The notes under the pieces: model-generated | Told to the model about the DNA's origin: nothing | The model's database searches: none | Seen by the model: the letters and a program-made list of their open reading frames with translations, nothing else | Shown: in pieces, positions 4,970 to 18,874 of the stretch | Layout: each line of letters opens with the position of its first letter | Position numbering within the stretch: position 1 is the first letter of the stretch | Made by a program: the position numbers and the translations under genes | From: a virus | Virus record (IMG/VR): IMGVR_UViG_3300012964_000024 | Location: 1-39,683 of that record | DNA length: 39,683 bases | Reading direction: 5' to 3' (one strand)

Positions 4970-4982
4970 CTTATCTCCTATA

Positions 4983-6475: not shown

Positions 6476-7401
6476 TAGAATTCTCCACTGGTTGTTGAGA
6501 TACCTGCTTTAGGCAAATGTTTATTAATCGTAGTTAATATATCTTGCTCGCTACTTGAATTAATAAGTAATTTTGAAATTGAGTTTCGAGCAATCTGTTC
6601 ACATAATGTTAAATCAATGTCGGAATGTGTTAACGGAAAATAGGGCAAAATCTCAGACAAGATAACTGTATAAGGGCGAGTAAAAAAGAATTTATAAAAA
6701 TCAGCCTCAGAGTATTGTTTAACTGTTCTGAATAATGCTAAAACTACTTTTATCCATGAGTATAGAGTTTCAACATCATTAGTTCCATAATGATGCCTAA
6801 ATTCAATGCTTCCCTTTTCTCTTATACTTCGTACATTCATTGCCTCATACTTAGCACCACTACTAATTGAATTAATCACATCAGCTTCATTTATATTTTG
6901 CATAAAAAGGGAAGATAATCGCTTTATACCTGAGTTATTTTTATAATAAGGAATACAATAACTATTATTCTCTCTTCCATGACCAATGTAATTAAAGATA
7001 TATGGCTCTAAAGCCAAATAATACAGGATTAATGTACGCAATTGCAATAAATTTAAAAACCTAGTGTCACAATGAATATGTACTGACGTTCTTTCAGAAT
7101 AATCTGGATTAATATTATTATTTACAAAGACATTATTAAGTTCCTCTAATGCCGCTCTAATGTCTCCTCCTCGTAACATCACTGATACGAATTCAGTGCC
7201 ATAGTTTCTTAAACTTCCATCTGTGGTTACGTCCCAGTAGTTAAGTAAAATATTTAAATCCTCGTTAACTATCTGAATATTCTCAGCCTCGATTTCAATT
7301 CCCACGTATTTATCAGACATAGGAAGAGAATGATCTACCTGAAACTGTCTCGCATCTGGCCTGCGATTAAACAAATTACCTAACGGTTTATCTAATTTCA
7401 T
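6475..7401 (-). CDS. Amidoligase (Amidoligase_2 family)
   Basis: The protein has 308 residues with the family's glutamine-synthetase-fold signature: YVGIEIEAE (32-40), TTDGSLR (59-65), TEFVS (69-73), SVHIHCD (106-112), NNSYCIPYY (145-153) and GSIEFRHHYG (197-206). These enzymes are predicted to form amide bonds between a carboxylate and an amine using ATP. Its start overlaps the 435-residue gene by 14 bases and its stop overlaps the class II amidotransferase ATG, so all three are probably co-translated. The substrate is unknown. Family assignment is from motif recognition. Confidence 0.85.
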   Translation of the reverse strand: MKLDKPLGNLFNRRPDARQFQVDHSLPMSDKYVGIEIEAENIQIVNEDLNILLNYWDVTTDGSLRNYGTEFVSVMLRGGDIRAALEELNNVFVNNNINPDYSERTSVHIHCDTRFLNLLQLRTLILYYLALEPYIFNYIGHGRENNSYCIPYYKNNSGIKRLSSLFMQNINEADVINSISSGAKYEAMNVRSIREKGSIEFRHHYGTNDVETLYSWIKVVLALFRTVKQYSEADFYKFFFTRPYTVILSEILPYFPLTHSDIDLTLCEQIARNSISKLLINSSSEQDILTTINKHLPKAGISTTSGEF

Positions 7402-8695
7402 ACGGCACCATCTGAGACAACATATGTTTATGTGGACTAAAGGGTTGATAAACTTTTAAATATGATTCTGATTTATGTAATTCTCCTATACATTTGTCCA
7501 TGTATAATAGAAAATATTTATGAGTTTGTTTATGATTTCTTTTAACTAGGACAATCTCTGGAGTTAAAATGATAAATGAATCTTTATCCCCTAAACCTTG
7601 TTCTATAGTTTTATATTGACGTGTTAAGTAGTCTCGAACAATGTCCTGTGTAAACATTGATCGTGATAAATATTGCCCTTCAGTAGTTGAAAAGTCCAAC
7701 ATCATTCGGACATTATTCGGAGAGAGCGCTCGCAAATACGTACCTGGAACATACTCTGCATAAACAAGCCTGGCAGCAGTGCTAGTTATAACCCATCCTA
7801 ATGGAGAATTAAAAAATACATGCTTTTCTTCAGAATAGGGCTCTGTTATTGTTTTAGCAGATTTTCCCGGAATATATAACTCATACTGAATATGTACTCC
7901 ATTTATATCATTAATAAATCCTGTAACATAAAATATATGAGTATTTTTTATAACTCCATAACAGGAACGATATCTGATAGAAAGATTGTGTGCTACATCG
8001 TTCGCTGCGTGGGAACTAGGTCGTCTACGAAGATTATCAGTCTCTACAGAAAATGAATTAGTATTAGTTTCCTCATTTCTATTCAATCGAACCCTATATT
8101 GTGAACTAGGTACTACCTGAGAAGCTAACTCAATAGGTTCTGTGGAAATATACGTGCTGAAGTACTCGTTCACCAATCGGGCCATGATGGCCGCTAGAGC
8201 TTCTACTCTTATTCCAATAAGTGTATTACTTCCTCCATTATCTCTACTATAAACATTTGTATAATTAGAGATTACCCTATGTAATAAATATTTTTCTCCG
8301 TCTGCCAATAAGGGTGCTGTTAAAATTGAGATACTTATTTCATATTGATTTGATGCTGGAATATTTTGTTCTGATGTCAAACTATTATACATAGATAAGT
8401 ATTCCATGTATCCTGTTACTCCGATTACATCACCTAATGCCGCTCCACTAATCTGGATATTACACTCTATCATACATTGACGTATAGTACTATTTCTATC
8501 CCAATGAGCAAACTGGGACGGACTGGCATCTAGATAAGACCTACGTAATACCCAATATAAACAATCGAAGGGAATTGACTCGACGCCGCCCTCGACAGAT
8601 ATTTCTATAAGACGATTTCTGACATTAGGATCAGTAAATACATATTCCCATAAACGATTTGCTACTACAGTTTCATCAGGAGTAATAGGACGCAT
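7388..8695 (-). CDS. Unrecognised 435-residue protein of the amide-ligase cluster
   Basis: It starts at an ATG at 8695, two bases after the COOH-NH2 ligase stop, and overlaps the amidoligase by 14 bases, so it is embedded in the cluster. The N-terminal half is helical; the C-terminal half looks rich in beta strands (YGVIKNTHIFYVTGFIND, ILTPEIVLVKRNHKQTHKYF). No signal peptide or membrane segment is visible. I do not recognise a family. Its fixed position between two ligases suggests it is a scaffold, an acceptor substrate or a further enzyme of the pathway; this is inference from context only. Confidence 0.75.
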   Translation of the reverse strand: MRPITPDETVVANRLWEYVFTDPNVRNRLIEISVEGGVESIPFDCLYWVLRRSYLDASPSQFAHWDRNSTIRQCMIECNIQISGAALGDVIGVTGYMEYLSMYNSLTSEQNIPASNQYEISISILTAPLLADGEKYLLHRVISNYTNVYSRDNGGSNTLIGIRVEALAAIMARLVNEYFSTYISTEPIELASQVVPSSQYRVRLNRNEETNTNSFSVETDNLRRRPSSHAANDVAHNLSIRYRSCYGVIKNTHIFYVTGFINDINGVHIQYELYIPGKSAKTITEPYSEEKHVFFNSPLGWVITSTAARLVYAEYVPGTYLRALSPNNVRMMLDFSTTEGQYLSRSMFTQDIVRDYLTRQYKTIEQGLGDKDSFIILTPEIVLVKRNHKQTHKYFLLYMDKCIGELHKSESYLKVYQPFSPHKHMLSQMVPYEIR

Positions 8696-8697
8696 TT

Positions 8698-9492
8698 TTA
8701 ATACTCCAAAGCAGGATGTAGAGGAAATTCTAAACTCTTACGTAAAGTTTTTAAAAACTTAGATGCTTGGGATTTATTATTGCTATTTATAAGAGTAACA
8801 ATATCTTCTGTTATATAATATTTGTGCAAGTCTTTATAGTTAAGTGCAACAAACATGGCTGAATCAAACATCCATTTTCGTCCAGCAGCAGTGTGCGCCC
8901 AAAAGTTTGAAGGAGTACGCCATTCTACTCCATATGGTTTAAATCGCATTGCGCCTGCTTTACCGTATAAAATCTTTCTTCGGATATCCTTATCGACTAA
9001 GACAGATTGCGTTCCGATAAATGCATCCATACAACGAATTAACTCAAAGCCATCTTTAACCGATAGCTTTGGAATACCTACATGAACATGGCCTCCAGCC
9101 GATCTAAGTCGGGCCAGATTGCCCGTAGGCTTTGTAAATTTATTAACCATGTGTGTCCAAGCATTATAGTCTGGATCACATCCAAATTCTTTAGCTAACG
9201 GATGCCGCAATTCTTTTTCAGAAAACAACATAGATGCAGCAGTAGAAAGAGATAGAAAAGGAGGCAATCTATTTTTTAATTCTTGTACAACAGTTTGAAT
9301 ATTAGTTTCCCAGGCACTAGAATCTTGTGCTGGATAAATATTAATTTCTGCTAACACATTATCTTCCTGTAGTGCTCCTAGATGGCACGGACTGGGACTA
9401 GTCTTGCTCCCTCCTACAAAACCAATTGCAGATACAGGAACCTTGCCTTTAACTAAAATAAATTCAACATCATTACCGATTGTAATATGCAT
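8698..9492 (-). CDS. phiEco32-type COOH-NH2 ligase
   Basis: The protein has 264 residues with motifs of the phage COOH.NH2 ligase type 2 family: TIGNDVEFIL (4-13), EDNVLAEINIYPA (43-55), GCDPDYNAW, LRSAGGHVHVGI (129-140) and AMRFKPYGVEWRTPS (181-195). The Glu and His residues in these motifs match the metal/ATP site of the glutamine-synthetase-like fold. It should couple a carboxyl to an amino group with ATP hydrolysis. It is separated by only two bases from each neighbouring gene in the cluster. The substrate is unknown. Confidence 0.88.
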   Translation of the reverse strand: MHITIGNDVEFILVKGKVPVSAIGFVGGSKTSPSPCHLGALQEDNVLAEINIYPAQDSSAWETNIQTVVQELKNRLPPFLSLSTAASMLFSEKELRHPLAKEFGCDPDYNAWTHMVNKFTKPTGNLARLRSAGGHVHVGIPKLSVKDGFELIRCMDAFIGTQSVLVDKDIRRKILYGKAGAMRFKPYGVEWRTPSNFWAHTAAGRKWMFDSAMFVALNYKDLHKYYITEDIVTLINSNNKSQASKFLKTLRKSLEFPLHPALEY

Positions 9493-9494
9493 GA

Positions 9495-10421
9495 TTATTT
9501 CTCCAGTTTATAAATATGATTTACTACTTGTTGCAATTTATTATATATTTCATAAGATTTTTCTAGTTTTCTAAAAAGACGCTCTCCTTCTATATATATC
9601 GTCTTATATGGATATAGACTATATAGACCATCCAATACATTTTTGTAAGATTCTAAAGGCCGGAGTATGCCTGCCCTCTCTGCTGGTCGTGTGAGATTAT
9701 TGGGAAAATTCAGTACTACAGAGGCTACCTGATCATTGAGCCTTTTTACAGTGGTTATTAATCCCATTGGACTATGTATACCCAAAAAATAAGTATGCAG
9801 ATTACTAATGTCTGGAGTATACTTTATTCCCTTTGTATCGCTGGATAATCGTCCTGTTACATGGTCTTGGTAAAGAGTAAATTTACTTGAAGGATCAGTT
9901 ACATAACCGCTCTGTAAGCTAGCAGTTAATGACACATATTCTGGAGATGTTCTAACTGGATCATTTTCATCTATTTTTGAATATCCAGTAAATGTTTTTC
10001 TCATATCTTGTGTAAAGAGCCAAAATAAGGCAGGAACTTTATAATCATTCTTAGTAATCTTAAAAATCATTGTACTAATTGGACGAGAATCAAAGTCATC
10101 ATAATCTTTCACATCAGATTCATATTTTAATTCTTCATTTTCTATATGAAAAACATCAAACATCCAGTTCCATTTCTTTTTAAATGTATTAAAAACTACT
10201 TGAGTAATAGGTGAGGGCATTACTAAAGCGCATGTGATATAAGGTACATTTTCTGAAAATAAGTAATCATGTGCCTTAGTGAGAAAGTAGTCTCGACACG
10301 TGCCATAAAAAAAGTCAGTTTGAGTATATCCCAATTTATCCTCATTAACTATCATAAAATTATTTACGATATTCTCTTGATATACACCTCTTCCTTCAGA
10401 ACGTATCAATAGCCTTTTCAT
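9495..10421 (-). CDS. Unrecognised 308-residue protein of the amide-ligase cluster
   Basis: The ATG at 10421 has its AGGA ribosome site inside a TTAATC palindrome (10424-10439). The sequence includes NVPYITCALVMPSPITQVVF, aromatic-rich stretches (WNWMFDVFHI, ALFWLFTQDM) and NFPNNLTRPAERAGILRPLESY. The C-terminus is a coiled helix (RLFRKLEKSYEIYNKLQQVV). No known catalytic motif, signal peptide or membrane helix is evident. It lies between the ATP-grasp ligase and the COOH-NH2 ligase with 2-3 base spacers, so it probably works in the same pathway. Confidence 0.75.
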   Translation of the reverse strand: MKRLLIRSEGRGVYQENIVNNFMIVNEDKLGYTQTDFFYGTCRDYFLTKAHDYLFSENVPYITCALVMPSPITQVVFNTFKKKWNWMFDVFHIENEELKYESDVKDYDDFDSRPISTMIFKITKNDYKVPALFWLFTQDMRKTFTGYSKIDENDPVRTSPEYVSLTASLQSGYVTDPSSKFTLYQDHVTGRLSSDTKGIKYTPDISNLHTYFLGIHSPMGLITTVKRLNDQVASVVLNFPNNLTRPAERAGILRPLESYKNVLDGLYSLYPYKTIYIEGERLFRKLEKSYEIYNKLQQVVNHIYKLEK

Positions 10422-10423
10422 TA

Positions 10424-10439
10424 GTTAATCCTGATTAAG
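10424..10439. promoter_or_regulatory. TTAATC palindrome, site 2
   Basis: It reads GTTAATCCTGATTAAG, core TTAATC-CT-GATTAA. It covers the stop of the ATP-grasp gene and the Shine-Dalgarno AGGA of the gene starting at 10421, so a bound protein or an RNA hairpin here could affect translation as well as transcription. Confidence 0.55.
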
Positions 10440-11222
10440 TAAATTGATAATGGCGTTTGCATAGCTATTTATTGTTTGCCCTTCAAGCCCAGGAGCAGTA
10501 TTAATTTCAAGTGCGTAAGCTTTATTCCTCTTATCAACAATAATATCCACAGCCCCAAAATCAAGGCCCAAAACAGAGACAGCAGACATAGCAAGAGACA
10601 ATATAGTATTGTCAGGCGAACAGTTCTCGCGGGCAAAGATCCATCCATTATTATGGCTTCTAATCCGTTTATTAATTGTTTTCGACTGCATTGCTTCCCT
10701 ACTCTTTCTTTTGCGTTGTGCATCTATCACCTTCCCACGAAATACATGAATACGATACTCTACTATCTTTGGAATGTATTGTACATATAGTTTGATAGGA
10801 TCATCCGCCCATTCCATATTTTCAATATCAAATAAGTCTTGAAAATAATAACATCCTTCGCCACTATGTCCCTTTAATTTTGTCCGTGCCATTACCGGAA
10901 CATTCCAAGATTTTGCGGTTTCTATATCAGTGGTCCATTTTGGAATGTCCCTAAATCTTGCGTGATTAAATTTTCTGAAAGTTTCTAGTTTATCTACCGC
11001 TGTTTTCACAGAAGTTGGAAGATTAACACAATTAGTAAAGTCCCACTCTGGAAGATTACTGTTACCCCAATTGATGATTAAATCAGACCATCGAGGTTTA
11101 TAATTTCCGTCGGGATAAACACGCAAAACTTTTCCTTCAAATTGTTTCTGTATTTCTTTTTGTAAAAGAGTCACAGAGGCAGAAGCAATATTGTAAGGAT
11201 AAAAAATAATTCTTTTATACAT
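10425..11222 (-). CDS. ATP-grasp ligase, RimK-like
   Basis: The protein has 265 residues. The C-terminal two thirds match ATP-grasp enzymes: VMARTKLKGHSGEG (110-123, nucleotide-binding loop), KLYVQYIPKIVEYRIHVFRG (144-163), NNGWIF, and the metal-binding VDIIVDKRNKAYALEINTAPGL (225-246). RimK-type enzymes join amino acids to carboxyl groups through an acylphosphate. The N-terminal segment (FYPYNIASAS...LIINWGN) resembles the pre-ATP-grasp domain. The start overlaps the class I amidotransferase by 8 bases. With the two COOH-NH2 ligases it gives this phage three peptide/amide-bond-forming enzymes. Confidence 0.87.
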   Translation of the reverse strand: MYKRIIFYPYNIASASVTLLQKEIQKQFEGKVLRVYPDGNYKPRWSDLIINWGNSNLPEWDFTNCVNLPTSVKTAVDKLETFRKFNHARFRDIPKWTTDIETAKSWNVPVMARTKLKGHSGEGCYYFQDLFDIENMEWADDPIKLYVQYIPKIVEYRIHVFRGKVIDAQRKRKSREAMQSKTINKRIRSHNNGWIFARENCSPDNTILSLAMSAVSVLGLDFGAVDIIVDKRNKAYALEINTAPGLEGQTINSYANAIINLLNQD

Positions 11223-11862
11223 GAATATACTCCTTTATAGCGTAATCAACAAAATCTAACGCTAAACGAAATCTCTTTTCACTAAAATTCATCATCTCTG
11301 GATGCCACTGAACTCCCAAACTATTGATTTTAGGAAAAAAAATAGCCTCTGGTTCTATGACAGTATTTGTTTGCTTAAAAGCAATATTTTCTGCGTATGC
11401 TAGAACTTTTTGTTCTTTTGTAGGAATACACATTTGATGGTGCAGACTATTTACCGGGAAAACAGTATATTTCCATGTGTCGTTAGCAACGACTTTGACT
11501 AGATGGCCGCCTACATGATTATTGACATGGGGAATAAGTGTACCACCAGTGAGTGCAGTAAGAAGCTGCATACCTCTGCAAATACCAAACATGGGAACTT
11601 TATGTTCTACAGCCCATAAAAACCATGATTTTTCCCATTCATCTCGTAGAGAACTACACTGTATGTATGAATAAGTTTCCCCATACATAGAGGGACATAA
11701 GTCCTGTCCTCCAGTAAACAACAAAAGACCAGGAACGGGATAAGTAGAGTTTGGTAAGTCATTAATTCCCAAACCAACTACTCGCTGAAAATTCTTTCCA
11801 AAAGTGCGGTGGAGAAGAAAATTAGCAGTGTGTTTATTTCCTAGAACGTACACCGTCTTCAT
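11215..11862 (-). CDS. Class I glutamine amidotransferase / C26-type hydrolase
   Basis: The protein has 215 residues. It shows the class I glutaminase triad: Cys95 in FGICRGMQLL, and His187 with Glu189 in LGVQWHPEM. FTGGQDLCPSMYGE (49-62) and NSLHHQ are typical of the gamma-glutamyl-GABA hydrolase (PuuD-like) branch. It may hydrolyse gamma-glutamyl amides or supply ammonia from glutamine to the linked ligases. It is the first gene of the compact amide-ligase cluster, with an ATG at 11862 and its stop overlapping the ATP-grasp gene. Confidence 0.87.
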   Translation of the reverse strand: MKTVYVLGNKHTANFLLHRTFGKNFQRVVGLGINDLPNSTYPVPGLLLFTGGQDLCPSMYGETYSYIQCSSLRDEWEKSWFLWAVEHKVPMFGICRGMQLLTALTGGTLIPHVNNHVGGHLVKVVANDTWKYTVFPVNSLHHQMCIPTKEQKVLAYAENIAFKQTNTVIEPEAIFFPKINSLGVQWHPEMMNFSEKRFRLALDFVDYAIKEYIHV

Positions 11863-11925
11863 TTTGCTACCTATTAAATGAAATCATTAAAGGCATTGTG
11901 TATAAATCAATTGAAGCCAGACATA

Positions 11926-12010
11926 TGGTGCTCAAGGTCGGACTCGAACCGACACGCTAAAAAGCAACAGATTTTAAGTCTGTCATGTCTACCAATTCCA
12001 TCACAAGAGC
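11926..12010 (-). tRNA. tRNA-Leu(UAA)
   Basis: An 85-nt class II tRNA with encoded CCA. The minus strand starts GCTCTTGTGATGG. The anticodon stem ACAGA/TCTGT encloses the loop CTTAAAA, giving anticodon UAA. There is a 13-nt long variable arm, and the T arm is GTCGG-TTCGAGT-CCGAC. It aligns along its length with E. coli tRNA-Leu(UAA). Two U-U mismatches occur in the acceptor stem (positions 5-68 and 6-67). It would read UUA, a codon favoured by AT-rich phage genes. It lies within the leftward transcription unit between the amide-ligase cluster and small genes. Confidence 0.93.
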
Positions 12011-12016
12011 AAAAAT

Positions 12017-12301
12017 TTAACGAGCTTTATGTTGCTTAAAAGGCTTGTTCTTTTTTCCATTACATACATGATAAGGAAAATTATTTAAAGAACGACCTTT
12101 TCCCTCATGTTGCCAATCTGCACGAAGTTGTTGATTCTGTACTCGCCTCGCCCACGCTCCTGACTCTTTATCCCGCCGAGTTTTACCGGGACGTGCAATA
12201 AATCCCTCTACATGATGCTTGTGCCTTACCGGCACAAAAAGACGCACGCTGGAATGCAGTTTACCAGTTTCTTTACGAACATCTTCCACGTAATGTTTCA
12301 T
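12017..12301 (-). CDS. Basic hypothetical protein, 94 residues
   Basis: It starts at an ATG at 12301 with AAGGA about 8 bases upstream. The product is strongly basic and His-rich (VRHKHHVEGFIARPGKTRRDKE...GKKNKPFKQHKAR), consistent with nucleic-acid binding. It has no recognised domain. It ends 6 bases before the mature tRNA sequence in the direction of transcription, so the mRNA and tRNA are probably processed from one transcript. Confidence 0.62.
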   Translation of the reverse strand: MKHYVEDVRKETGKLHSSVRLFVPVRHKHHVEGFIARPGKTRRDKESGAWARRVQNQQLRADWQHEGKGRSLNNFPYHVCNGKKNKPFKQHKAR

Positions 12302-12313
12302 TGGATTATCCTT

Positions 12314-12508
12314 CTATGCAGGAAGTTTAACTAACCATTCAGAATGAATAGCTCCGAGAATAACAACATTTGGCTCATCAATCAAACGTACTGATATGAT
12401 AGACATACTGCCGCCCTCGTAATTATCTTTTCTTCGTACCTTAACTGTGCCTCGTTTCTGGAAATTGATAAATTGAGCCGGACTGAACATAGAATCAGCA
12501 TGAGGCAT
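12314..12508 (-). CDS. Hypothetical protein, 64 residues
   Basis: The ATG at 12508 has an AGGAGG ribosome site 5 bases upstream. The product begins MPHADSMFSPAQFINFQKRG and is followed by a predicted small beta domain (TVKVRRKDNYEGGSMSIISVRLID, PNVVILGAIHSEWLVKLPA). No signal peptide. Unknown function; probably a small early protein. Confidence 0.62.
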   Translation of the reverse strand: MPHADSMFSPAQFINFQKRGTVKVRRKDNYEGGSMSIISVRLIDEPNVVILGAIHSEWLVKLPA

Positions 12509-12598
12509 AAATCCTCCTAAAGATATACTAGCCTATAATAAAAGTTTTTGTATGATAATTTCCTGTTCCAAAACAAAAATTTATATTCTTCAGTAATT

Positions 12599-12748
12599 TC
12601 AGGACATTCCATACATTCTCATGTCTGAATGCCGGCTTCTTGACATATTTAAAACTGAACCACAATCGGGACAAATACCATTCTGTATACAAAAATCTCT
12701 TTTTTTACTTTGTTTGTGGACTTTTAGTGCTTTTTCGTATGCATTCAT
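12599..12748 (-). CDS. Small zinc-ribbon-like protein, 49 residues (possibly frameshifted)
   Basis: The ATG at 12748 is preceded by GGAG with an 8-base spacer. The product has CIQNGICPDCGSVL, half of a zinc ribbon, and stops after RMYGMS. In the next frame, reading continues M-E-C-P-E-I-T-E-E-Y for about 30 more codons. That would add a further Cys and a typical acidic tail. The gene may therefore be frameshifted, slippery or mis-sequenced. Confidence 0.5.
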   Translation of the reverse strand: MNAYEKALKVHKQSKKRDFCIQNGICPDCGSVLNMSRSRHSDMRMYGMS

Positions 12749-12759
12749 TATTTAATCTC

Positions 12760-13017
12760 CTATTTAACTCTGTGCCATATTCCCCGAACTTTTACGAAGT
12801 GTGCAGGGCGTTTACCTAAAGTCTTTCCATATTGTTTTCCATCTTTCAGGTATCCTTTCAAATCCAAAAGCTTTACATCTCCGGTCCACATCAAACAGGT
12901 CTGATTATGGAAAGTAATCCGATTAGAATTTGAAAAAATACCGAATCCTGCATCATGCTTTGGAAAGCGACTTTTCAGTGATGCTGCTGGACTTGGAGGA
13001 CGTAAAGTAGGATGCAT
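12760..13017 (-). CDS. Hypothetical basic protein, 85 residues
   Basis: I chose the ATG at 13017, preceded by AAAGGT at 6 bases, over a TTG at 13032. The product begins MHPTLRPPSPAASLKSRFP and has NRITFHNQTCLMWTGDVKLLDLKGYL and a basic end, KVRGIWHRVK. The alternation of hydrophobic and charged residues suggests a small beta fold. A TTAATC palindrome and a TATAAC -10-like hexamer lie just upstream, so it is probably the first gene of a regulated unit. No family recognised. Confidence 0.6.
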   Translation of the reverse strand: MHPTLRPPSPAASLKSRFPKHDAGFGIFSNSNRITFHNQTCLMWTGDVKLLDLKGYLKDGKQYGKTLGKRPAHFVKVRGIWHRVK

Positions 13018-13039
13018 ATATTTACCTTTCAATAAAATA

Positions 13040-13055
13040 GTTAATCTAGATTAAC
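13040..13055. promoter_or_regulatory. TTAATC palindrome, site 3
   Basis: Perfect 16-bp GTTAATCTAGATTAAC, identical to site 1. On the minus strand it lies 13 bases downstream of a TATAAC hexamer (13069-13074) and 22 bases upstream of the ATG at 13017. That is where a repressor would block early elongation. Confidence 0.7.
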
Positions 13056-13095
13056 AAAAGATAGTGATGTTATACTCTGAAGCATGCTACTGCGA

Positions 13096-13722
13096 TTAGA
13101 ATGATACCTTAGTTTCAAACACATAAGCATCACTAGAAACAAATGGCAATCCGTCTTTATGGGAATCAATTTTAAAATAGCTTATTCCAAAGTCCAAATT
13201 GCCCACTCTATACCCAAGACCCAACATAGGTCTAACCTCAAGCTGAGTAGAATGTGTTTCTGTTCCTAGATAATTTCCGTCTATATCGGAAAATTCCACT
13301 TTCCACATTTGTTTATATACAAACAGTCCTACTTTTCCGTAAAGACTGCCAATAGGCAAGTAAGACTCTTTAGAAACAGAAAACAATCCTCCTGTAATAT
13401 TTCCATTTCCAATCAGTCTGTACAGATGCGATCCGTTGTGAGGATACCCATTATAGGTCGCATCAGCCTCAGCTACGCAAATTGTGTGTGCTTGTCCCAA
13501 AGAAACAAATTCTGCTTCATATCTTAGGTCATGCCTTTTAAAACTTACTCCCACACTAAGTGTACTAGCTTGTAAATCAAGAGAATAGGGGTATCCTTTT
13601 TGATAGTATATCCCATTTTGTGGCTTGGAGTAGTTTGTAATGCCTGTACCTATATCAAAATCAAGGGCTAGAGCATTATAACTGCAAAACAACAAGAAAA
13701 CTGCAAGCATTAGATTACGCAT
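13096..13722 (-). CDS. Phage-encoded outer-membrane beta-barrel protein
   Basis: The protein has 208 residues from an ATG at 13722 (GAGGAGG upstream). A signal peptide, MRNLMLAVFLLFCSYNALA, is followed by amphipathic strands alternating with short turns (FDIGTGITNY, LSVGVSFKRHDLRYEAEF, YGKVGLFVYKQMWKVEF, RPMLGLGYRVGNLDFGISYF). The last strand ends VFETKVSF. A C-terminal Phe with alternating hydrophobics is the signal recognised by the BAM machinery. It should fold into the host outer membrane as a barrel of about 8 strands, as Lom-type or OmpW-like proteins do. Possible roles are superinfection exclusion or surface remodelling; those are inferences. Confidence 0.78.
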   Translation of the reverse strand: MRNLMLAVFLLFCSYNALALDFDIGTGITNYSKPQNGIYYQKGYPYSLDLQASTLSVGVSFKRHDLRYEAEFVSLGQAHTICVAEADATYNGYPHNGSHLYRLIGNGNITGGLFSVSKESYLPIGSLYGKVGLFVYKQMWKVEFSDIDGNYLGTETHSTQLEVRPMLGLGYRVGNLDFGISYFKIDSHKDGLPFVSSDAYVFETKVSF

Positions 13723-13740
13723 AATTCCTCCTCAGCTTGC

Positions 13741-14106
13741 AATAGCACACATTCAGAGTATAACTCACTAGCTTCTGCTAGTTTGCCGGTATCGTCTAGG
13801 CATTTAAGACCCAGCCCAATACATTAAATGTGGCTGTCACTCCCCGGCGCGGCCTTAGCATCCCCTCGCTACTGTGCTACTGCACAAGATTCAGAAGCCA
13901 TTTTATCTAGCTTCCTTAATTACCTGTTTTAACAGGGTTCGGGGTTCCAGTCACTTTTTCAAGCTCTGGTTAGATATGTAGCAGGTCTAAGATAACTATC
14001 GAAACATTATCTATAACTTTTTCGGAACATTGCGTCCTAGCCGCTATATCTTTTTGCGTATGCCGTGGTTATTTCGTAAATACTCGGTATTTTGTCCCTG
14101 CAAAAA
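13741..14106 (-). ncRNA. Structured non-coding block with hairpin array
   Basis: About 370 bases lack a credible gene. They contain five consecutive perfect hairpins: CTAGC/GCTAG (13768-13781), CAGCC/GGCTG with nested ACAT/ATGT (13812-13836), TGTGC/GCACA (13873-13886), GAAGC/GCTTC (13894-13914) and CCTGTT/AACAGG (13923-13936). A GCAGG/CCTGC pair closes 13981-14101. The block is visibly less AT-rich than nearby genes. A TTGACT-N17-TATAGT promoter upstream would transcribe it leftward, as a separate RNA or as the leader of the outer-membrane protein gene. No known RNA family recognised. Confidence 0.45.
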
Positions 14107-14122
14107 CTTAATCTAGATTAAC
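14107..14122. promoter_or_regulatory. TTAATC palindrome, site 4
   Basis: It reads CTTAATCTAGATTAAC; the 14-bp core is identical to sites 1 and 3. On the minus strand it is followed by GTTTTT, so in RNA it could also act as a weak hairpin-plus-U-run terminator. Confidence 0.65.
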
Positions 14123-14191
14123 TAAATTAAATCTTTGGACAGACTGCGCCCCGCGACCGCTCACCACAACCGGAGTCCGGCGCATATAAAT

Positions 14192-14220
14192 ACTATAACA
14201 TATATATCCCCTGAAGTCAA
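14192..14220 (-). promoter_or_regulatory. Sigma70-type promoter
   Basis: On the minus strand: TTGACT, 17-base spacer, TATAGT. It is placed directly after the stop of the 35-residue gene. Transcription would start near 14185, run through a GCGCC/GGCGC stem (14146-14183) and palindrome 4, then into the structured block and the outer-membrane protein gene. Confidence 0.7.
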
Positions 14221-14232
14221 GGGACATAGATT

Positions 14233-14340
14233 TTATAGTGATCTATTAGTAATAGCTTTTACAATCCACACCGTGCCCACTAAAACAAATGCTAGCCATG
14301 TTGCAAAATCTATACATAAGTTTATCGTATGTTGATCCAT
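14233..14340 (-). CDS. Tiny membrane protein, 35 residues
   Basis: The product is MDQHTINLCIDFATWLAFVL followed by VGTVWIVKAITNRSL, one hydrophobic helix of about 20 residues. The ATG at 14340 lies inside the 3' end of the preceding gene, a 19-base overlap, so translation is probably coupled; its own ribosome site is weak. No family recognised. Confidence 0.48.
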   Translation of the reverse strand: MDQHTINLCIDFATWLAFVLVGTVWIVKAITNRSL

Positions 14341-14432
14341 TCGGTTACCCAATCAATAATTTTGCCAATAAGAAAAATACCCCCACAAATTACAAATGTG
14401 TAGGCTAAATTCAAAAAATCATTATGTGACAT
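14322..14432 (-). CDS. Tiny membrane protein, 36 residues
   Basis: The ATG at 14432 follows a strong GAGGAGG ribosome site. The product begins MSHNDFLNLAYTFVICGGIF and ends KIIDWVTEWINIR: one transmembrane helix and an amphipathic tail. It is the middle member of a run of small leftward genes. Function unknown. Confidence 0.6.
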   Translation of the reverse strand: MSHNDFLNLAYTFVICGGIFLIGKIIDWVTEWINIR

Positions 14433-14441
14433 ATTTCCTCC

Positions 14442-14633
14442 TCATAGATTATATAGTGTGGTCATCTTAACGTTTCCACAGTCCATCAAATGCTCATTAT
14501 TCCACTCAACAGCCATGACCCATTCTAGAAAACATGGAGATACAATTGCGTCATTTCCTTTGGAATCTTTACCAAAGACAATGTAAAAAATTGGTGCTTT
14601 CTCATCATCATAGAACGGCACTTTGATTCCCAT
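14442..14633 (-). CDS. Hypothetical protein, 63 residues
   Basis: The ATG at 14633 follows AGGAG with an 8-base spacer. The product begins MGIKVPFYDDEKAPIFYIVF and continues GKDSKGNDAIVSPCFLEWVM. It is soluble-looking and probably a small mixed alpha/beta fold. It sits 9 bases ahead of the next tiny gene in the same unit. No family recognised. Confidence 0.6.
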   Translation of the reverse strand: MGIKVPFYDDEKAPIFYIVFGKDSKGNDAIVSPCFLEWVMAVEWNNEHLMDCGNVKMTTLYNL

Positions 14634-14792
14634 AAAATTCTCCTGTTAAGGCGATTCGGGACTGGCTGGCCGGATAGCTAATCCGTTTAACCCATTACTT
14701 TGCCCAAGTAACGTATTTGCAGGCACCACGAGCCAGTCCTTCCTCGACAAGCCAGTTTTAGGAACGGAGCCGAAACCCTTGCTTGCGAGACT
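14634..14792 (-). ncRNA. Structured leader with two alternative pairings
   Basis: This gene-free block has ACTGGCT (14661-14667), which can pair with either of two AGCCAGT copies (14731-14737 within a 9-bp match, and 14750-14756). An internal hairpin TTACTT/AAGTAA lies at 14695-14711. It precedes the ribosome site of the 63-residue gene. The mutually exclusive pairings resemble an attenuator or riboswitch expression platform, but no known family is recognised. A weak TTAATC-like site lies at 14678-14690. Confidence 0.35.
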
Positions 14793-14972
14793 TTAATGCT
14801 TTGTATCAGTGATCGTTAGAGCTTCGATCAATTCCACTTTGATCCCCTGATTTCTCCAGTACAGAATCTCAGTTTCTACCTGAGTCCTGTCCGAATCATC
14901 ATAGTACACCATAGTCGGCTTAGGCATTGATGGCCCAGCATACACTTTAAGGACGAATACAGGCATAAGCAT
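14793..14972 (-). CDS. Hypothetical protein, 59 residues
   Basis: The ATG at 14972 follows an AGGAGG ribosome site 4 bases upstream. The product has MLMPVFVLKVYAGPSMPKPT, then YYDDSDRTQVETEILYWRNQ and GIKVELIEAL. It looks like a small soluble alpha/beta protein. It is the first gene downstream of the hammerhead ribozyme, so its mRNA would be cut 5' of it, about 200 bases upstream of the start codon. No family recognised. Confidence 0.62.
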   Translation of the reverse strand: MLMPVFVLKVYAGPSMPKPTMVYYDDSDRTQVETEILYWRNQGIKVELIEALTITDTKH

Positions 14973-14991
14973 ATATCCTCCTGATGATACA

Positions 14992-15006
14992 TTAAACTAC
15001 GTTTAA
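14992..15006. promoter_or_regulatory. Second palindrome type TTAAAC-TAC-GTTTAA
   Basis: A perfect dyad with 6-base arms around 3 bases, 20 bases upstream of the ATG at 14972, next to a degenerate TTAATC-type site at 15012-15025. Possible operator or RNA hairpin. Confidence 0.35.
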
Positions 15007-15055
15007 CACATCTAATCTAAATTAAGTGTCGGTTACGCACTTCCGACGAGCTTTA

Positions 15056-15082
15056 TTTATAGCCTCTCGACCAAGCTATAAA
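15056..15082 (-). other. 8-bp stem-loop in the ribozyme downstream fragment
   Basis: Inverted repeat TTTATAGC/GCTATAAA with an 11-base loop. A second stem GTCGG/CCGAC lies just downstream on the minus strand. Together they make the stretch between the hammerhead and the next gene highly structured. Confidence 0.45.
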
Positions 15083-15168
15083 ATCGTGGGCATACACCTA
15101 TCGGGTCGCCGCTCGCTAAGTGTCTCCATGTGCCGTGTCGAGTGCTAGCACAAGTTAATGCCCTGCTC

Positions 15169-15227
15169 CGCGTTTACGCCAGGAATATTCCCCTAGCGTT
15201 TCGGCCCTATGGCCTCATCAGAACGCG
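15169..15227 (-). ncRNA. Type I hammerhead self-cleaving ribozyme
   Basis: Minus-strand RNA in order: stem I CGCGUU; invariant CUGAUGA (15215-15221); stem II GGCC-AUAG-GGCC; invariant GAAA (15199-15202); stem III CGCUAGG with loop GGAAUAUU and CCUGGCG (one U-G pair); then U-A and stem I AACGCG. The A of GAAA pairs with the U before the cleavage base, as required. Predicted cleavage follows the A complementary to 15175. All invariant core bases are present. The open stem is stem I, making it type I. It starts 6 bases after the stop of the 58-residue gene and would split the leftward transcript between two small genes. Confidence 0.93.
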
Positions 15228-15232
15228 ACTTC

Positions 15233-15409
15233 TTAAGGAATTACTATCACCGCATACAGAAAGGCAATAATAACCCCGATAGCGATTGTTGATCCTACTG
15301 TGACAATCGCAATGTCAAGAAAGATTTCAAACAATGATTGGTCCGGCGTAGTATCCGCCACAGTCTGCCTCGCGGCCTCTACAGTCTTGTGTAGCTGTTT
15401 GATTCTCAT
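15233..15409 (-). CDS. Small membrane protein, 58 residues
   Basis: The ATG at 15409 follows a GGAGG ribosome site. The product starts MRIKQLHKTVEAARQTVADT (soluble helix) and continues with a long hydrophobic helix (IAIVTVGSTIAIGVIIAFLY), giving an N-in or N-out single-pass protein. A TTAATC palindrome lies 20 bases upstream, and the hammerhead follows the stop. Unknown function; probably an early membrane protein. Confidence 0.62.
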   Translation of the reverse strand: MRIKQLHKTVEAARQTVADTTPDQSLFEIFLDIAIVTVGSTIAIGVIIAFLYAVIVIP

Positions 15410-15428
15410 TTTCCCTCCACAGATAAAA

Positions 15429-15443
15429 GTTAATCGGATTAAC
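15429..15443. promoter_or_regulatory. TTAATC palindrome, site 5
   Basis: GTTAATCGGATTAAC, arms separated by one base. It lies 20 bases upstream of the ATG at 15409. A TTGACA hexamer (15493-15498) and weak -10-like sequences (around 15459-15475) lie further upstream. Confidence 0.65.
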
Positions 15444-15538
15444 TATTTCCTTACTTCTAGTATGACAATAGCTTAACACATAACAATAACTATGTCAAGT
15501 CATGTCTACTTTTAATAACCCTATAATCTAAGGCTCTT

Positions 15539-15565
15539 AAAAGTATCCCCTCTTACGAGGGGATA
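15539..15565 (-). terminator. Rho-independent terminator (leftward)
   Basis: A perfect 9-bp stem, TATCCCCTC/GAGGGGATA, with a 4-base loop (15544-15565), followed on the minus strand by ACTTTTAA. It lies 22 bases after the stop of the 208-residue gene and should end that unit. Confidence 0.75.
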
Positions 15566-15587
15566 AGGGCAGGTAATCTTAGCTAAC

Positions 15588-16214
15588 TTACTGACTTACT
15601 GCACGAATCTGCGCGGCTTCCAGAGCTTCCGCATCGGTCATGCTTTCATTGTCCGACACATCGACTTTCGGCTCATACTTTGAAATGATCTCTTCCTGTA
15701 CTTCGGTAGGAAGCTTCGCAACCCGATCTAGCAGATCATTAAATAATACTTCCGTGACAGACTTGGCGCGCTGTATCTCCACATCAACACCATTCTCCCC
15801 TCCCTCGCCCTGCTCCATTGACTTCTTGGGGCTTTTGCGGGCCTTGACTGCCTGAGTCTTAAGCTCTTTGTACTGACTGTAGGACTCAGAATCATTTGGG
15901 ATAAGCCCAAAATCCTCCCATCCACGCAGAATCACAGATTTAGCATTGCTCCAAGCACCTGGCAAACGAACATAAGCTTGCCGTTCCTTCTTGGCCATGC
16001 CGGCATTCGCTGCCTTTTCCGTAAGGCGGGTCTTGCGAGCACTTTCTGCAGCAGCGCATCCGGACTCAAACTGATCAGCACTTGTGCATCCCTGAGCCAG
16101 AATAAAGAGATGTTGCGCTACTGATTCCTGTTTACCGCTGATTACCTTCTGTGCATTGTCCGCCTCAGCGAGCACGGAGTTAAAGGTAATTTCCTGCTTC
16201 TTTTCCTGTGTCAT
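15588..16214 (-). CDS. Hypothetical early protein, 208 residues
   Basis: It starts at an ATG at 16214. The protein is helical and charged: VLAEADNAQKVISGKQES, AESARKTRLTEKAANAGMAK, KERQAYVRLPGAWSNAKSVI, then a basic linker (KARKSPKKS) and an acidic C-terminus. It is alone between a good sigma70-type promoter (16321-16349) and a terminator, so it is probably expressed early and strongly. A TTAATC site lies in its leader. Less AT-rich than the neighbouring small genes. No domain recognised. Confidence 0.72.
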   Translation of the reverse strand: MTQEKKQEITFNSVLAEADNAQKVISGKQESVAQHLFILAQGCTSADQFESGCAAAESARKTRLTEKAANAGMAKKERQAYVRLPGAWSNAKSVILRGWEDFGLIPNDSESYSQYKELKTQAVKARKSPKKSMEQGEGGENGVDVEIQRAKSVTEVLFNDLLDRVAKLPTEVQEEIISKYEPKVDVSDNESMTDAEALEAAQIRAVSQ

Positions 16215-16240
16215 GGTTAAACCCTCGTAATTGACAGACT

Positions 16241-16267
16241 AGCTCAGTATGAGCTAATCCGATTAAG
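16241..16267. promoter_or_regulatory. TTAATC palindrome, site 6, with adjoining hairpin
   Basis: CTAATCCGATTAAG (16254-16267) adjoins the inverted repeat AGCTCA/TGAGCT (16241-16255). Both lie in the leader between the promoter at 16321-16349 and the ATG at 16214. Confidence 0.55.
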
Positions 16268-16320
16268 TGGATTTAGCCAATCAACCTGCCCAAATTGTAA
16301 AAGAACGTATTACAGGGATT

Positions 16321-16349
16321 ACTATAAACCTAATCTTTATCTGTGTCAA
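16321..16349 (-). promoter_or_regulatory. Consensus sigma70 promoter
   Basis: Minus strand TTGACA, 17-base spacer, TATAGT. It overlaps the last codons of the 31-residue gene. It should drive the 208-residue gene and would be read by host RNA polymerase. Confidence 0.8.
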
Positions 16350-16425
16350 GCATTGATGCAATCACCCTAACAACAATCGCCAAGATGATTACAATCAACA
16401 TCAGAGCACGAAAAAGGTAATTCAT
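16330..16425 (-). CDS. Tiny membrane protein, 31 residues
   Basis: The product is MNYLFRALMLIVIILAIVVR followed by VIASMLDTDKD, almost entirely one transmembrane helix with a short charged tail. The ATG at 16425 follows AAGGTG. A promoter for the next gene is embedded in its 3' end. Function unknown. Confidence 0.58.
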   Translation of the reverse strand: MNYLFRALMLIVIILAIVVRVIASMLDTDKD

Positions 16426-16478
16426 AGTATCACCTTGAGTACATTGTTTCACAGTGTTTGCATTGTGTCACGCGTAAT

Positions 16479-16492
16479 CTAATCCGATTAAG
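16479..16492. promoter_or_regulatory. TTAATC palindrome, site 7
   Basis: CTAATCCGATTAAG, identical to the core of site 6. On the minus strand it lies about 10 bases downstream of an extended -10 (TGG-TATAAA, 16502-16510). Confidence 0.6.
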
Positions 16493-16501
16493 CTAAATGT
16501 T

Positions 16502-16510
16502 TTTATACCA
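16502..16510 (-). promoter_or_regulatory. Extended -10 promoter element
   Basis: Minus strand TGG-TATAAA without a convincing -35. It would transcribe through site 7 toward the 31-residue gene. Confidence 0.4.
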
Positions 16511-16554
16511 GGATTAATAAGATTAATGATATAGTGCTTCTCACGCGCGCGCGT

Positions 16555-16583
16555 ATTATAAGGAATAGCAATTAGTGTGCCAG
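16555..16583 (-). promoter_or_regulatory. Sigma70-like promoter
   Basis: Minus strand CTGGCA, 17-base spacer, perfect TATAAT. It lies upstream of the extended -10 at 16502-16510 and would drive the same leftward unit. Confidence 0.5.
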
Positions 16584-16807
16584 GTAGTGTGATCTGATTA
16601 GACTAATATAGTGTGACCGACTTTAAATCATCCTATCCCACTATAAATAATTCTTATAGAAAATCTTAGCCACCCCCCGAGGGGAAATTTAGGAATGTCA
16701 TATTGATTAGTACCTTACATTCGACGGTTATATAAATTTCTAAGGTCCAAAAAGGGCTAAAATTAGAAAACTCGTGGCAAACTTTACCCAAAACTATTAC
16801 CTAAATA

Positions 16808-16823
16808 CTTAATCTAGATTAAC
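16808..16823. promoter_or_regulatory. TTAATC palindrome, site 8
   Basis: CTTAATCTAGATTAAC, the same 16 bases as site 4. On the minus strand it begins 4 bases downstream of the extended -10 at 16828-16836, so it would cover the transcription start. Confidence 0.68.
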
Positions 16824-16827
16824 TTTT

Positions 16828-16836
16828 ACTATACCA
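16828..16836 (-). promoter_or_regulatory. Extended -10 promoter element
   Basis: Minus strand TGG-TATAGT. No good -35 at the usual distance; a TTGACA occurs only 8 bases upstream. It is the rightmost leftward promoter candidate. Confidence 0.5.
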
Positions 16837-16884
16837 AACCTTGTCAAGCCCCCTAAATGAAATAAATATTTTTACTTTCATAGG

Positions 16885-16911
16885 GAACTTTTTATGATTC
16901 TTGTTGTCTAA
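16885..16911 (+). promoter_or_regulatory. Phage-specific promoter candidate, copy 1 (rightward)
   Basis: GAACTTTTTA, 9 bases, TTGTCTAA, then GTA. It is 81 bases upstream of copy 2, in front of the late operon. Confidence 0.65.
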
Positions 16912-16965
16912 GTACTAGTAAGATTACGATTTACAACATCTCTAAAATATATTTTTTATTTTGCG

Positions 16966-16992
16966 GAACTTTTCCTGTTTTTAGTTGTCTAA
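16966..16992 (+). promoter_or_regulatory. Phage-specific promoter candidate, copy 2 (rightward)
   Basis: GAACTTTTCC, 9 bases, TTGTCTAA, then GTATAT. It is followed by an AT-rich leader of about 125 bases to the protease ATG. Confidence 0.65.
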
Positions 16993-17019
16993 GTATATTT
17001 TAAATATAATTATTACTTA

Positions 17020-17035
17020 GTTTCCTAAAGGAAAC
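17020..17035 (+). other. Leader hairpin GTTTCC-TAAA-GGAAAC
   Basis: A perfect 6-bp stem with a TAAA loop, about 30 bases after copy 2. The 12-base core TTCCTAAAGGAA recurs at 24755-24766 just before a structural gene start, where it contains the ribosome site. Confidence 0.45.
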
Positions 17036-17119
17036 AATATAAATAGATAAATAATAATTATAAATAAAACTATAATATACTTATAAAATCTTTTTTTCTT
17101 CTGAGGTATATTCTTTTTT

Positions 17120-17830
17120 ATGCGAAAGATATTATTCTTGGTTGGTTTACTCGCCCTATTGGGCGGAACTATTCTGTATAAATTAGATTATACCTCTGCT
17201 CCTGTTATGCAGGAGCGTAATCTTATGAGCACTGTATATGTGCTCAATGTAGTCTCTCCGTCTGCACAGGGAGAAATGCAGCCGGTATCTCATGGTTCTG
17301 GAGTTGTTGTGCAACTCCGTAATGGTCACGTCTATCTCGTGACCGCTTATCATGTAGTTGATGATCTTAAGGATCATCCAGAGTATGTACTGCTGATCTC
17401 TCGATCAGCGTTTGAAGTTAAAGGAGATCGTGCAACTATAGTGGTTGTTGATCCTCTGCACGATCTTGCTATTGTTGAAGTCCAATCTTTGCCTGCCGCT
17501 AAGGCGGCGTATATTTGCACATTGACACCAGAGGTCTTTGACCGGGTGGTGGCAATAGGGTCTCCTGGACCCTTGCACGTTTCTCCTGCGGAGGGCATCA
17601 TCTCTGATACTGATGCCCTTTTTCCCACGTTACTGAATAATATGAACTTTCCAATGATTCAGCATACAGCCACTATCAGTGGCGGAGATTCAGGTGGTGG
17701 TCTATTTAAGTATGAAAATGGTGGATGGTGTTTGCAGGGAATCAATACTCAAGCCATTGGGGACCATCCATCTATCAATTTCGCTGTAGGGGTGCAATAT
17801 CTGCTACCCCTGTTACACAGCATCAAGTAA
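17120..17830 (+). CDS. HtrA/trypsin-like serine protease, membrane-anchored
   Basis: The protein has 236 residues. An N-terminal hydrophobic anchor or signal (residues 3-20) is followed by an S1-type fold with the full triad: His78 (VTAYHVVDD), Asp115 (DPLHDLAIVE) and Ser191 (SGGDSGGGLF). The sequence is closest in style to HtrA/DegP proteases without a PDZ domain. It is the first gene of the late operon. The start at 17120 has a distant ribosome site. An internal ATG at 17225 (Met36) has AGGAG at a good distance and would give a soluble form starting right at the protease domain. Possible roles are capsid or scaffold maturation, or cleavage of host envelope proteins. Confidence 0.83.
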   Translation: MRKILFLVGLLALLGGTILYKLDYTSAPVMQERNLMSTVYVLNVVSPSAQGEMQPVSHGSGVVVQLRNGHVYLVTAYHVVDDLKDHPEYVLLISRSAFEVKGDRATIVVVDPLHDLAIVEVQSLPAAKAAYICTLTPEVFDRVVAIGSPGPLHVSPAEGIISDTDALFPTLLNNMNFPMIQHTATISGGDSGGGLFKYENGGWCLQGINTQAIGDHPSINFAVGVQYLLPLLHSIK

Positions 17831-18168: not shown

Positions 18169-18401
18169 TGCCAATTGAATATACCCCTGCTAATATTACT
18201 CCCTCAGTTAATATTCCTGATGCTACAAAGCCACCTAAGAAAGATGATGCTCCGGTTAAAAAGAAACCTACAGGTAAGCCGGGAGAGACAATGCCCGGCC
18301 AATCTGATAAAGCTAATGATCCTATTAGGGGAACAGAGCGAGGCAAATATGGAATGGATGATGTAGAGCATGATGCTAATACTGGAGATATTGAACGATA
18401 A
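18168..18401 (+). CDS. Small Pro/Lys-rich protein with RGTERGKYG motif
   Basis: The protein has 77 residues. The N-terminal part is Pro-rich (IEYTPANITPSVNIPDATKP) and the middle is Lys/Pro-rich (PKKDDAPVKKKPTGKPGE), so it is likely disordered. The C-terminal PIRGTERGKYGMDDVEHDAN repeats the motif of the preceding protein. It is coupled to both neighbours by TAATG overlaps. No family recognised; it could bind a common partner. Confidence 0.65.
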   Translation: MPIEYTPANITPSVNIPDATKPPKKDDAPVKKKPTGKPGETMPGQSDKANDPIRGTERGKYGMDDVEHDANTGDIER

Positions 18402-18874
18402 TGGCTAAAGGTAAGGCTTGGGATATGGATACCCGTATTCAAGCTGCCATTGCTTGGCTTATTACGGGAGATTCAGAAGAGGCTGGAAGGCTTTGTAATA
18501 TTCCTGGACGTACTGTACGTCTATGGATGCAGCAACCTTGGTGGGAAGAAGTTCTTGCTGAAGCTCGTACAATTAAACAAAAGGAGTTAGATGCTTTATG
18601 GACAGGTCTGATTCACAAGTCTACGACAGCCCTGAGGGAACGCTTGGATCAGGGAGACGCGATTCTGAGCAAGACTGGAGAAGTAAGGTACTTGCCAGTA
18701 AAAGCGAAGGATATCGCAATCATAATGAGTATCGCAATCGACAAGCGAGCACTTCTTCGCAACCAGCCAACTTCGCGGGTGGAAAAAATTACGGTAGAGG
18801 AAAAACTGGATCGTATCGGAAACAAATTGGCCGAATTGGATCAGCCAGAGGTCGATGACGAACAGATTCATTAA
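18401..18874 (+). CDS. Terminase small subunit
   Basis: The protein has 157 residues. The N-terminal helix-turn-helix (IQAAIAWLITGDSEEAGRLCNIPGRTVRLW, about residues 13-42) should bind the packaging site. Helical oligomerisation segments (KQKELDALWTGLIHKSTTAL, KDIAIIMSIAIDKRALL) and an acidic tail follow. The layout and the position two genes before the large terminase support the call. Its TAA overlaps the ATG of a tiny membrane protein. Confidence 0.82.
   Translation: MAKGKAWDMDTRIQAAIAWLITGDSEEAGRLCNIPGRTVRLWMQQPWWEEVLAEARTIKQKELDALWTGLIHKSTTALRERLDQGDAILSKTGEVRYLPVKAKDIAIIMSIAIDKRALLRNQPTSRVEKITVEEKLDRIGNKLAELDQPEVDDEQIH

Follow-up and report, generated by a model that had tools for sequence, protein, structure and literature searches.

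Palindromic sites in the early arm of the window

The stretch analysed here, referred to throughout as the window, is the whole of virus record IMGVR_UViG_3300012964_000024 (39,683 bases, 60% A+T), and our subject is a short palindrome, TTAATC-N1-2-GATTAA, which recurs between the genes of one of its two arms. From 18965 onward the genes for terminase, portal, capsid and head closure point rightward (the structural arm), and leftward from 16.2 kb down to the left end lie a primase, an amidoligase, a glutamine amidotransferase and numerous small genes (the early arm); the limits of the two arms, here and in related phages, were set by us from gene order. The palindrome is present in seven exact copies and in 13 copies with at most one mismatch. 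Five of the exact copies have the N2 spacing (4984, 10425, 13041, 14108 and 16809) and two the N1 spacing (3723 and 15430), and the core TAATC-N1-GATTA occurs six times exactly alongside TAATC-N2-GATTA. A sequence-only reading of this DNA had listed eight positions, all of which do carry the palindrome, its 16-mers beginning one base ahead of the core, and had correctly recognized two identical pairs, GTTAATCTAGATTAAC at 4983 and 13040 and CTTAATCTAGATTAAC at 14107 and 16808. The sites, the promoter-like elements found by a promoter scan and the gene of a candidate regulator, which we call family A, are as follows.

1204–1216, no strand: N1 palindrome with one mismatch, gene-internal
3723–3735, no strand: exact N1 palindrome within the primase gene
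4984–4997, no strand: exact N2 palindrome, overlapping the stop codon of 4994–6475 and 14 bp before the start of 4577–4969 (minus strand)
7099–7112, no strand: N2 palindrome with one mismatch, gene-internal
10425–10438, no strand: exact N2 palindrome, overlapping the stop codon of 10425–11222 and 3 bp before the start of 9495–10421 (minus strand)
12914–12926, no strand: core TAATC-N-GATTA, the full word having two mismatches; gene-internal
13041–13054, no strand: exact N2 palindrome, 23 bp before the start of 12760–13017 (minus strand)
14108–14121, no strand: exact N2 palindrome within a long leader, 70 bp downstream of a promoter-like −10
14192–14220, minus strand: promoter-like TTGACT-17-TATAGT
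14678–14690, no strand: degenerate, uncertain copy with two mismatches, before 14442–14633 (minus strand)
15012–15025, no strand: degenerate, uncertain copy with two mismatches, before 14793–14972 (minus strand)
15430–15442, no strand: exact N1 palindrome, 20 bp before the start of 15233–15409 (minus strand)
15588–16214, minus strand: family A protein, 208 amino acids, first sizeable leftward gene; candidate reader of the palindromes by profile and association
16254–16266, no strand: N1 palindrome with one mismatch, 39 bp ahead of where the family A gene starts and 54 bp downstream of the −10 in the best promoter-like match
16321–16349, minus strand: promoter-like TTGACA-17-TATAGT, upstream of the family A gene
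16479–16491, no strand: N1 palindrome with one mismatch, before a small open reading frame (ORF) at 16330–16425 (minus strand)
16514–16526, no strand: weaker N1 palindrome with one inner-base mismatch, which may be chance
16555–16583, minus strand: promoter-like CTGGCA-17-TATAAT
16809–16822, no strand: exact N2 palindrome heading the leftward arm, with a TATAGT ending 5 bp before it

Gene junctions, as called by our own script, make up 15% of the sequence and hold nine of the 13 sites with at most one mismatch (P 1.4e-5) and six of the seven exact copies. The sequence-only reading had overlooked the gene-internal sites, i.e. the exact copy at 3723 in the primase gene and those at 1204, 1261, 7099 and 12914. 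The rightward operon is, as had been noted, free of comparable sites, all 13 falling within 1–17119.

An A+T-rich word in a window of this composition might be taken for a product of chance, but no shuffle reached the observed counts. The exact N2 form occurs five times in the window and in none of 100 dinucleotide-preserving shuffles, and with one mismatch allowed there are seven N1 and six N2 copies against shuffle means of 0.26 and 0.27 respectively, the largest shuffle count being two. Markov simulations of order 2 and 3 likewise yielded at most 0.03 per spacer. The excess over shuffled sequence is therefore clear, and a chance origin is refuted by the shuffles and simulations, its remaining probability being negligible.

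Four of the sites had been described as lying shortly after −10-like elements. By eye, TATAGT, TATAAA and TATAAC do end 5, 9 and 14 bp before 16809, 16479 and 13041 respectively, but 15430 is without a good element of this kind. The promoter scan of the window gave no overall excess (50 matches compared with 48.6 in shuffles); three of its four top-scoring matches point leftward (16349–16321, 16583–16555 and 14220–14192), and a palindrome lies 54–70 bp downstream of the −10 of each, as counted by hand. In addition, the palindrome at 14108 is contained in a leader or non-coding stretch of 466 bases (minus strand, 13725–14190), whose fold is better than that of any of 100 shuffles (z −4.15) and which matched no Rfam family.

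Private palindromes in related phages

Relatives were collected with the terminase of the window, which matched ten loci at 39–68% identity, and by a terminase alignment, which reached 80 loci; a scan for recurrent split palindromes that presupposed no motif found other words in several records. The word of the window was found in none of the 24 whole records tested, so that conservation of the motif upstream of orthologous genes, to which the sequence-only reading had looked, fails as conservation of sequence, and blastn of 13000–17200 against named phages returned nothing. What recurs in several relatives is not the word but the system, i.e. a palindrome private to each phage, placed at the junctions of the early arm and in most of them accompanied by one early protein family. 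Junctions hold the sites far more often than expected for six unrelated words: that of the window (9/13), TACTTTAAAGTA in G001 (4/5), TATACC-N3-GGTATA in G003 (11/11), TAGTATATACTA in G006 (7/7), TGTAMAAANTTTKTACA in G009 (7/9; best long form GAGTGTACAAAATTTGTACACTC) and TCCTAA-YR-TTAGGA in Alcaligenes phage QDWS535 (11/15). Genes were called in these records by our own script or taken from ORF lists rather than from a gene finder, except for QDWS535 and the Vibrio phages described below. The same test gave no junction bias in twelve other records with repeated words. For the window, G001, G003, G006 and QDWS535 all 51 sites lie in the early arm and outside the structural arm (log10 P −15.7 compared with random filling of the arms).

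Many of the sites in the relatives sit between a stop codon and the following ribosome-binding site, and 39 of 80 sites from eight records lie at most 60 bp before a called start, compared with 8–15% of random arm positions. In QDWS535 (locus L047, sites 25208–48092) the central two bases form a pyrimidine–purine step in all 15 copies, although the bases themselves vary (CA, TA, TG and CG). By eye, a stop codon directly precedes and a terminator-like hairpin directly follows the palindromes at 6201 of G001, 46870 of QDWS535 and 31611 and 42755 of Vibrio phage 1.139.A, an order of elements suggesting that these sites would suit a role in ending transcription.

Several other recurrent words were set aside. 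The word GTTACTAGTAAC, shared by G022, G024, G025, G030 and G031, occurs at 12–18 sites per genome with at most one mismatch, and its copy number is real, but the sites, on both arms, are mostly gene-internal, for which reason the set was not counted in the junction class. The recurrent palindromes of G013, G016, G017, G018, G021, G027 and G029 were dropped because their junction placement is within chance; other words in three of these records gave 5/11 sites at junctions for G016 (P 0.029), 4/5 for G013 (P 0.0029) and 4/5 for G021 (P 0.0083). The word of G028 contains ribosome-binding sites, and an 18-bp word shared by 16 viral contigs, with one exact copy each in the stretch examined, looks like chance.

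Family A as candidate reader of the palindromes

The protein that accompanies the palindromes was defined by a profile of the window gene and its counterparts in G001, G006 and G011, which collects 14 members sharing the conserved stretch P-x-x-W-x-x-x-K-S, with F in place of W in the Vibrio members. Among 33 records it is present in eight of the ten with a palindrome of at least four exact copies and in one of the 23 without (P 2.7e-5), and when the same test was applied to 93 gene clusters built independently of it, a family A cluster came top (P 1.9e-4), followed by genes of single lineages. A wider test added to these 33 records 53 further loci, each 8 kb or longer and freed of duplicates. 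In the 86 sets family A is present in 18, of which 12 have at least four exact palindrome copies, and absent from 68, of which three do; four of the 18 (L198, L199, L201 and L203) had themselves been fetched by means of family A and are omitted from the 33-record test. A lineage-collapsed Fisher test, in which only the positives were collapsed, compared 7/8 with 3/68. With uncurated clusters, another family scored best on the 86 sets (9/15 compared with 4/71, P 5.8e-6) and a family A cluster fifth (7/15 compared with 5/71, P 5.9e-4); that other family gave P 0.0059 in the 33-record test, which was limited to whole or long records because the 86 sets include fragments without an early arm.

Two loci reached through the family A protein alone, and not through terminase, allowed the association to be used as a prediction, as neither of their palindromes had been used in forming the hypothesis. 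L198 has six exact copies of TAGTCCGGACTA in 9 kb, five of them at junctions (P 0.015), and L199 has eight sites of TATTCTAGAATA, all at junctions (P 1.3e-6), one of which precedes an ATG of the family A gene by 12 bp, as counted by hand. With the family A protein of L199, phages of Vibrio breoganii filed in Zobellviridae were reached in turn, at E 0.003–0.01. In one of these, 1.139.A, the homologue NVP1139A_67 is the first leftward gene, and two palindromes recur: TATACATGTATA in eight exact copies, seven at annotated junctions (P 1.6e-7), and TATACA-N-TGTATA in seven, four at junctions (P 0.0012) and one in the structural arm. Of the Vibrio sites, two are found upstream of the first gene, and one of these precedes a TTGACA-like hexamer. 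The window and 1.139.A have in common the layout of terminase and head genes rightward with family A at the head of the leftward arm. A weak match in a bacterial bin, L208, was not recognized by the family A profile and has no recurrent palindrome. In G011, which carries family A, TAGTCC-N-GGACTA has two exact copies and a third with a single mismatch, all in a stretch of 1.5 kb around the family A gene.

Beneath their differences the words share a frame. In the 12-bp words of six lineages (the window, TAATCTAGATTA; G001; G006; L198; L199; and the Vibrio phages) position −6 is T and −5 is A, giving TA-N4|N4-TA, with T at −3 in five of the six and a freely variable base at −4; no exact probability can be attached to the TA ends because they came to notice only once the words were known. 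In the window (N1 and N2) and in the Vibrio phages (12 and 13 bp), two spacings that differ by one base occur side by side, and the words of G011 and L198 have the same arms at lengths of 13 and 12. The shared frame agrees with a single protein family whose outer contacts stay the same and whose inner contacts vary.

The family A protein of the window has no Pfam or PHROG match. AlphaFold models of the window and L199 proteins are all-helical (mean predicted local distance difference test, pLDDT, 70.8 and 69.7 respectively), and in the window model residues 75–102 fold into a short helix and, after a turn, a longer one bearing the conserved W and KS, which could be a helix-turn-helix as modelled; no such domain was matched in Pfam and no PDB entry supported the modelled one. 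Neither model has a Foldseek match in the PDB at E ≤0.001; fold matches to EthR, FrmR and others were weak and were not used (Z ≤4.8 for the window model and ≤5.0 for that of L199), and a missing match excludes nothing. Three phage proteins without a named function in a viral structure library do match the window model (probability 1.00, E 0.006–0.008). Peptide patterns from single proteins, which reach close relatives only, found nothing in viral contigs for either family A of the window or the protein of 10425–11222; nor did searches with the window family A protein in ten related records, or with those of the window, L198, G011 and G025 in named phages.

TerS (18401–18874) was rejected as the regulator because it accompanies terminase in relatives with and without palindromes, and family B (QDWS535_60, G017 and L107) was rejected as a homologue of family A (hhalign probability <1%); among its loci, L196 has a GCTGTT-N4 word at four places, and no palindrome recurs in L194 or L195. 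In addition, no gene family unique to the junction class was found.

Proposed operators, their alternatives and known systems

Taken together, the recurrence, placement and associations of these sites suggest that the palindromes serve as DNA operators for a sequence-specific, dimeric regulator that the phage encodes to control its early arm, most likely family A; we give this reading a probability of roughly 0.58. The proposal that they are operators of one regulator controlling leftward transcription accordingly remains the best reading and is strengthened by the relatives, although its word is not conserved and most of the sites are not on −10 elements. That the target is DNA rather than RNA, that a dimer binds, that the regulator is family A and that it represses are points that we infer, repression being rated above activation. 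DNA appears the likelier target because of the weak RNA folds of the words in the window, G001 and G006, the Vibrio sites upstream of the first gene and the central step in QDWS535, and this step together with the symmetry of the palindromes suggests a protein dimer on DNA.

Mechanistically, the protein of 15588–16214 would read the palindromes, including an operator just upstream of its own gene, and so would limit its own synthesis together with that of other early genes; self-limitation is suggested by a palindrome 12–111 bp before the family A gene in the window, G001, G006, L199 and 1.139.A. Initiation or elongation would be blocked at leaders and gene junctions. Sites after promoter-like matches and near −10-like hexamers make both occlusion of initiation and a block to elongation possible, and since the usual place of a site is a leader or the gap from a stop codon to the next ribosome-binding site, not a −10 element, an elongation block is as plausible as an initiation block. 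As each phage has its own operator word, word and regulator would have diverged together. A wider proposal, which we hold only tentatively and at somewhat less than even odds, is that family A may be a new class of DNA-binding regulator without a recognized domain, acting as a global early-arm switch in a group of tailed phages, which would read a 12-bp palindrome of constant TA ends and fast-changing inner bases, tolerate a second spacing one base off and have diversified into phage-private words.

Several observations weigh against assigning the sites to family A as early-arm operators. G003, G009 and QDWS535 belong to the junction class without having family A, so that it cannot be the sole reader in the group, and the nine sites of G009 run genome-wide from 46 to 42864, including the terminase–portal junction, rather than being confined to the early arm. 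The association tests ignore descent, and five of the ten palindrome-positive records are one lineage. In the five-record lineage of GTTACTAGTAAC the family A proteins are short and the word is mostly inside genes. G011 has three copies only, too few to count as positive. Several sites of the window are also gene-internal, none of the five in G001 lies at most 60 bp before a called start, and family A has no DNA-binding domain recognizable by Pfam or structure search.

The junction-class phages without family A, like the lack of a known DNA-binding fold in it, would equally suit operators read by another phage protein or by a host transcription factor, with family A merely a co-inherited neighbour, and hosts, and hence host factors, may differ from phage to phage. 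However, family A is the best associated of the 93 clusters, palindromes were correctly predicted in loci fetched by it alone, and the same half-site frame would hardly be expected of host factors across such different words; we consider this explanation rather unlikely, if one to be taken seriously. An element acting in RNA, in which the transcribed palindrome forms a small hairpin by the ribosome-binding site and controls translation or RNA processing, would account for the many sites close before gene starts, often between stop codon and ribosome-binding site, and the words of G003, QDWS535 and G009 are indeed foldable (−4.3 to −11.6 kcal/mol). Yet those of the window (−2.1 to −2.6 kcal/mol), G001 (−0.3 kcal/mol) and G006 (0.0 kcal/mol) scarcely fold, mismatches in the palindromes are uncompensated, exact copies lie inside genes too, and the two Vibrio sites precede the first gene, one ahead of its TTGACA-like hexamer, all of which make a role in RNA improbable. 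Still more remote is the idea that the sites regulate nothing and are linkers for recombination, or small mobile repeats, placed at gene boundaries: the sites do mark junctions in modular early arms, at positions independent of orthologous genes, but conservation extends over only 11–18 bp with unrelated flanks, the structural arms of five phages have no copies, and the frame and the protein persist through lineages that differ in their word.

Operators read by a phage regulator would have counterparts in known systems, and the finding is one of a known kind, i.e. recurrent intergenic palindromes, what is new being a series of phage-private words among relatives and a candidate protein linked with them; we found no description of these two together in the literature searched, the scope of which fell short of most subscription journals. 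Among the Cluster O mycobacteriophages (PMC4351075), phage Corndog has 34 copies of a 17-bp palindrome of unknown function, for which dimeric regulators were suggested; its intergenic copies are mostly leftward and about a third of all copies are gene-internal. Like the window, it has a short, free-centred, recurrent palindrome enriched between the genes of one arm, and as a kind the two agree. The Cluster O phages, described there as having a perfect palindrome in tens of copies and no stable lysogens, differ in their word, TGTTCGG-N3-CCGAACA, which is not of the same sequence family as TTAATC-N1-2-GATTAA; there, one word is reported from five close phages and no linked protein family was named, whereas here there are lineage-specific words, two spacings and a linked candidate reader. 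The SPbeta repeated element (SPBRE) is, according to PMC10516654, the site of the phage-encoded master repressor MrpR and resembles our sites in recurring within a single phage, between genes and in promoter regions, but SPbeta is temperate, the motif is of 15 bp and MrpR has a tyrosine-recombinase fold, to which the family A models have no PDB match at E ≤0.001; no lysogeny gene was found in the window. Cluster K mycobacteriophages (PMC3203893) have the SAS and ESAS repeats at gene starts, with inverted repeats before some genes and a consensus that differs by subcluster; ESAS are 17-bp imperfect repeats with a variable spacer beside the asymmetric 13-bp SAS, whereas the sites here are palindromes of 11–18 bp, no search having been aimed at an SAS-like 13-mer. 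Cluster A stoperators, which PMC4351075 also describes, are likewise numerous repressor sites at short intergenic gaps for which an elongation block was proposed, but they are asymmetric and oriented with transcription, and the window sites are symmetric.

Repeated intergenic palindromes had been reported from individual phage clusters, in some cases with no known reader. The related phages collected here offer a natural series for the co-evolution of a protein and its sites and a lead into how such phages tune or shut off early genes; if binding is confirmed they would provide a set of orthogonal regulators, and, were the wider proposal true, the control circuits of phages of the same group would not cross-react.

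Other features were noted in passing. On the minus strand, 4994–11862 holds a series of genes for amidoligase, COOH-NH2 ligase, ATP-grasp and glutamine amidotransferase proteins, which several relatives also have. Just downstream of 15233–15409, the minus strand of 15167–15230 holds a type I hammerhead ribozyme. Judged by its sequence and fold it is complete, with the core CUGAUGA...GAAA, three stems and a GUA cleavage site; its Rfam match is only partial, to type III, at 26.3 bits. A second type I hammerhead was found in L155 (record G021) at 9868–9928 on the minus strand, immediately before a tRNA gene at 9800–9870. By hand placement, its stem I would be supplied by the 5′ acceptor strand of this tRNA, and the cut would come about one base ahead of the tRNA. 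This hammerhead is tRNA-adjacent like the theta ribozymes of PMC10879173, but lies at the opposite end of the tRNA and belongs to another class.

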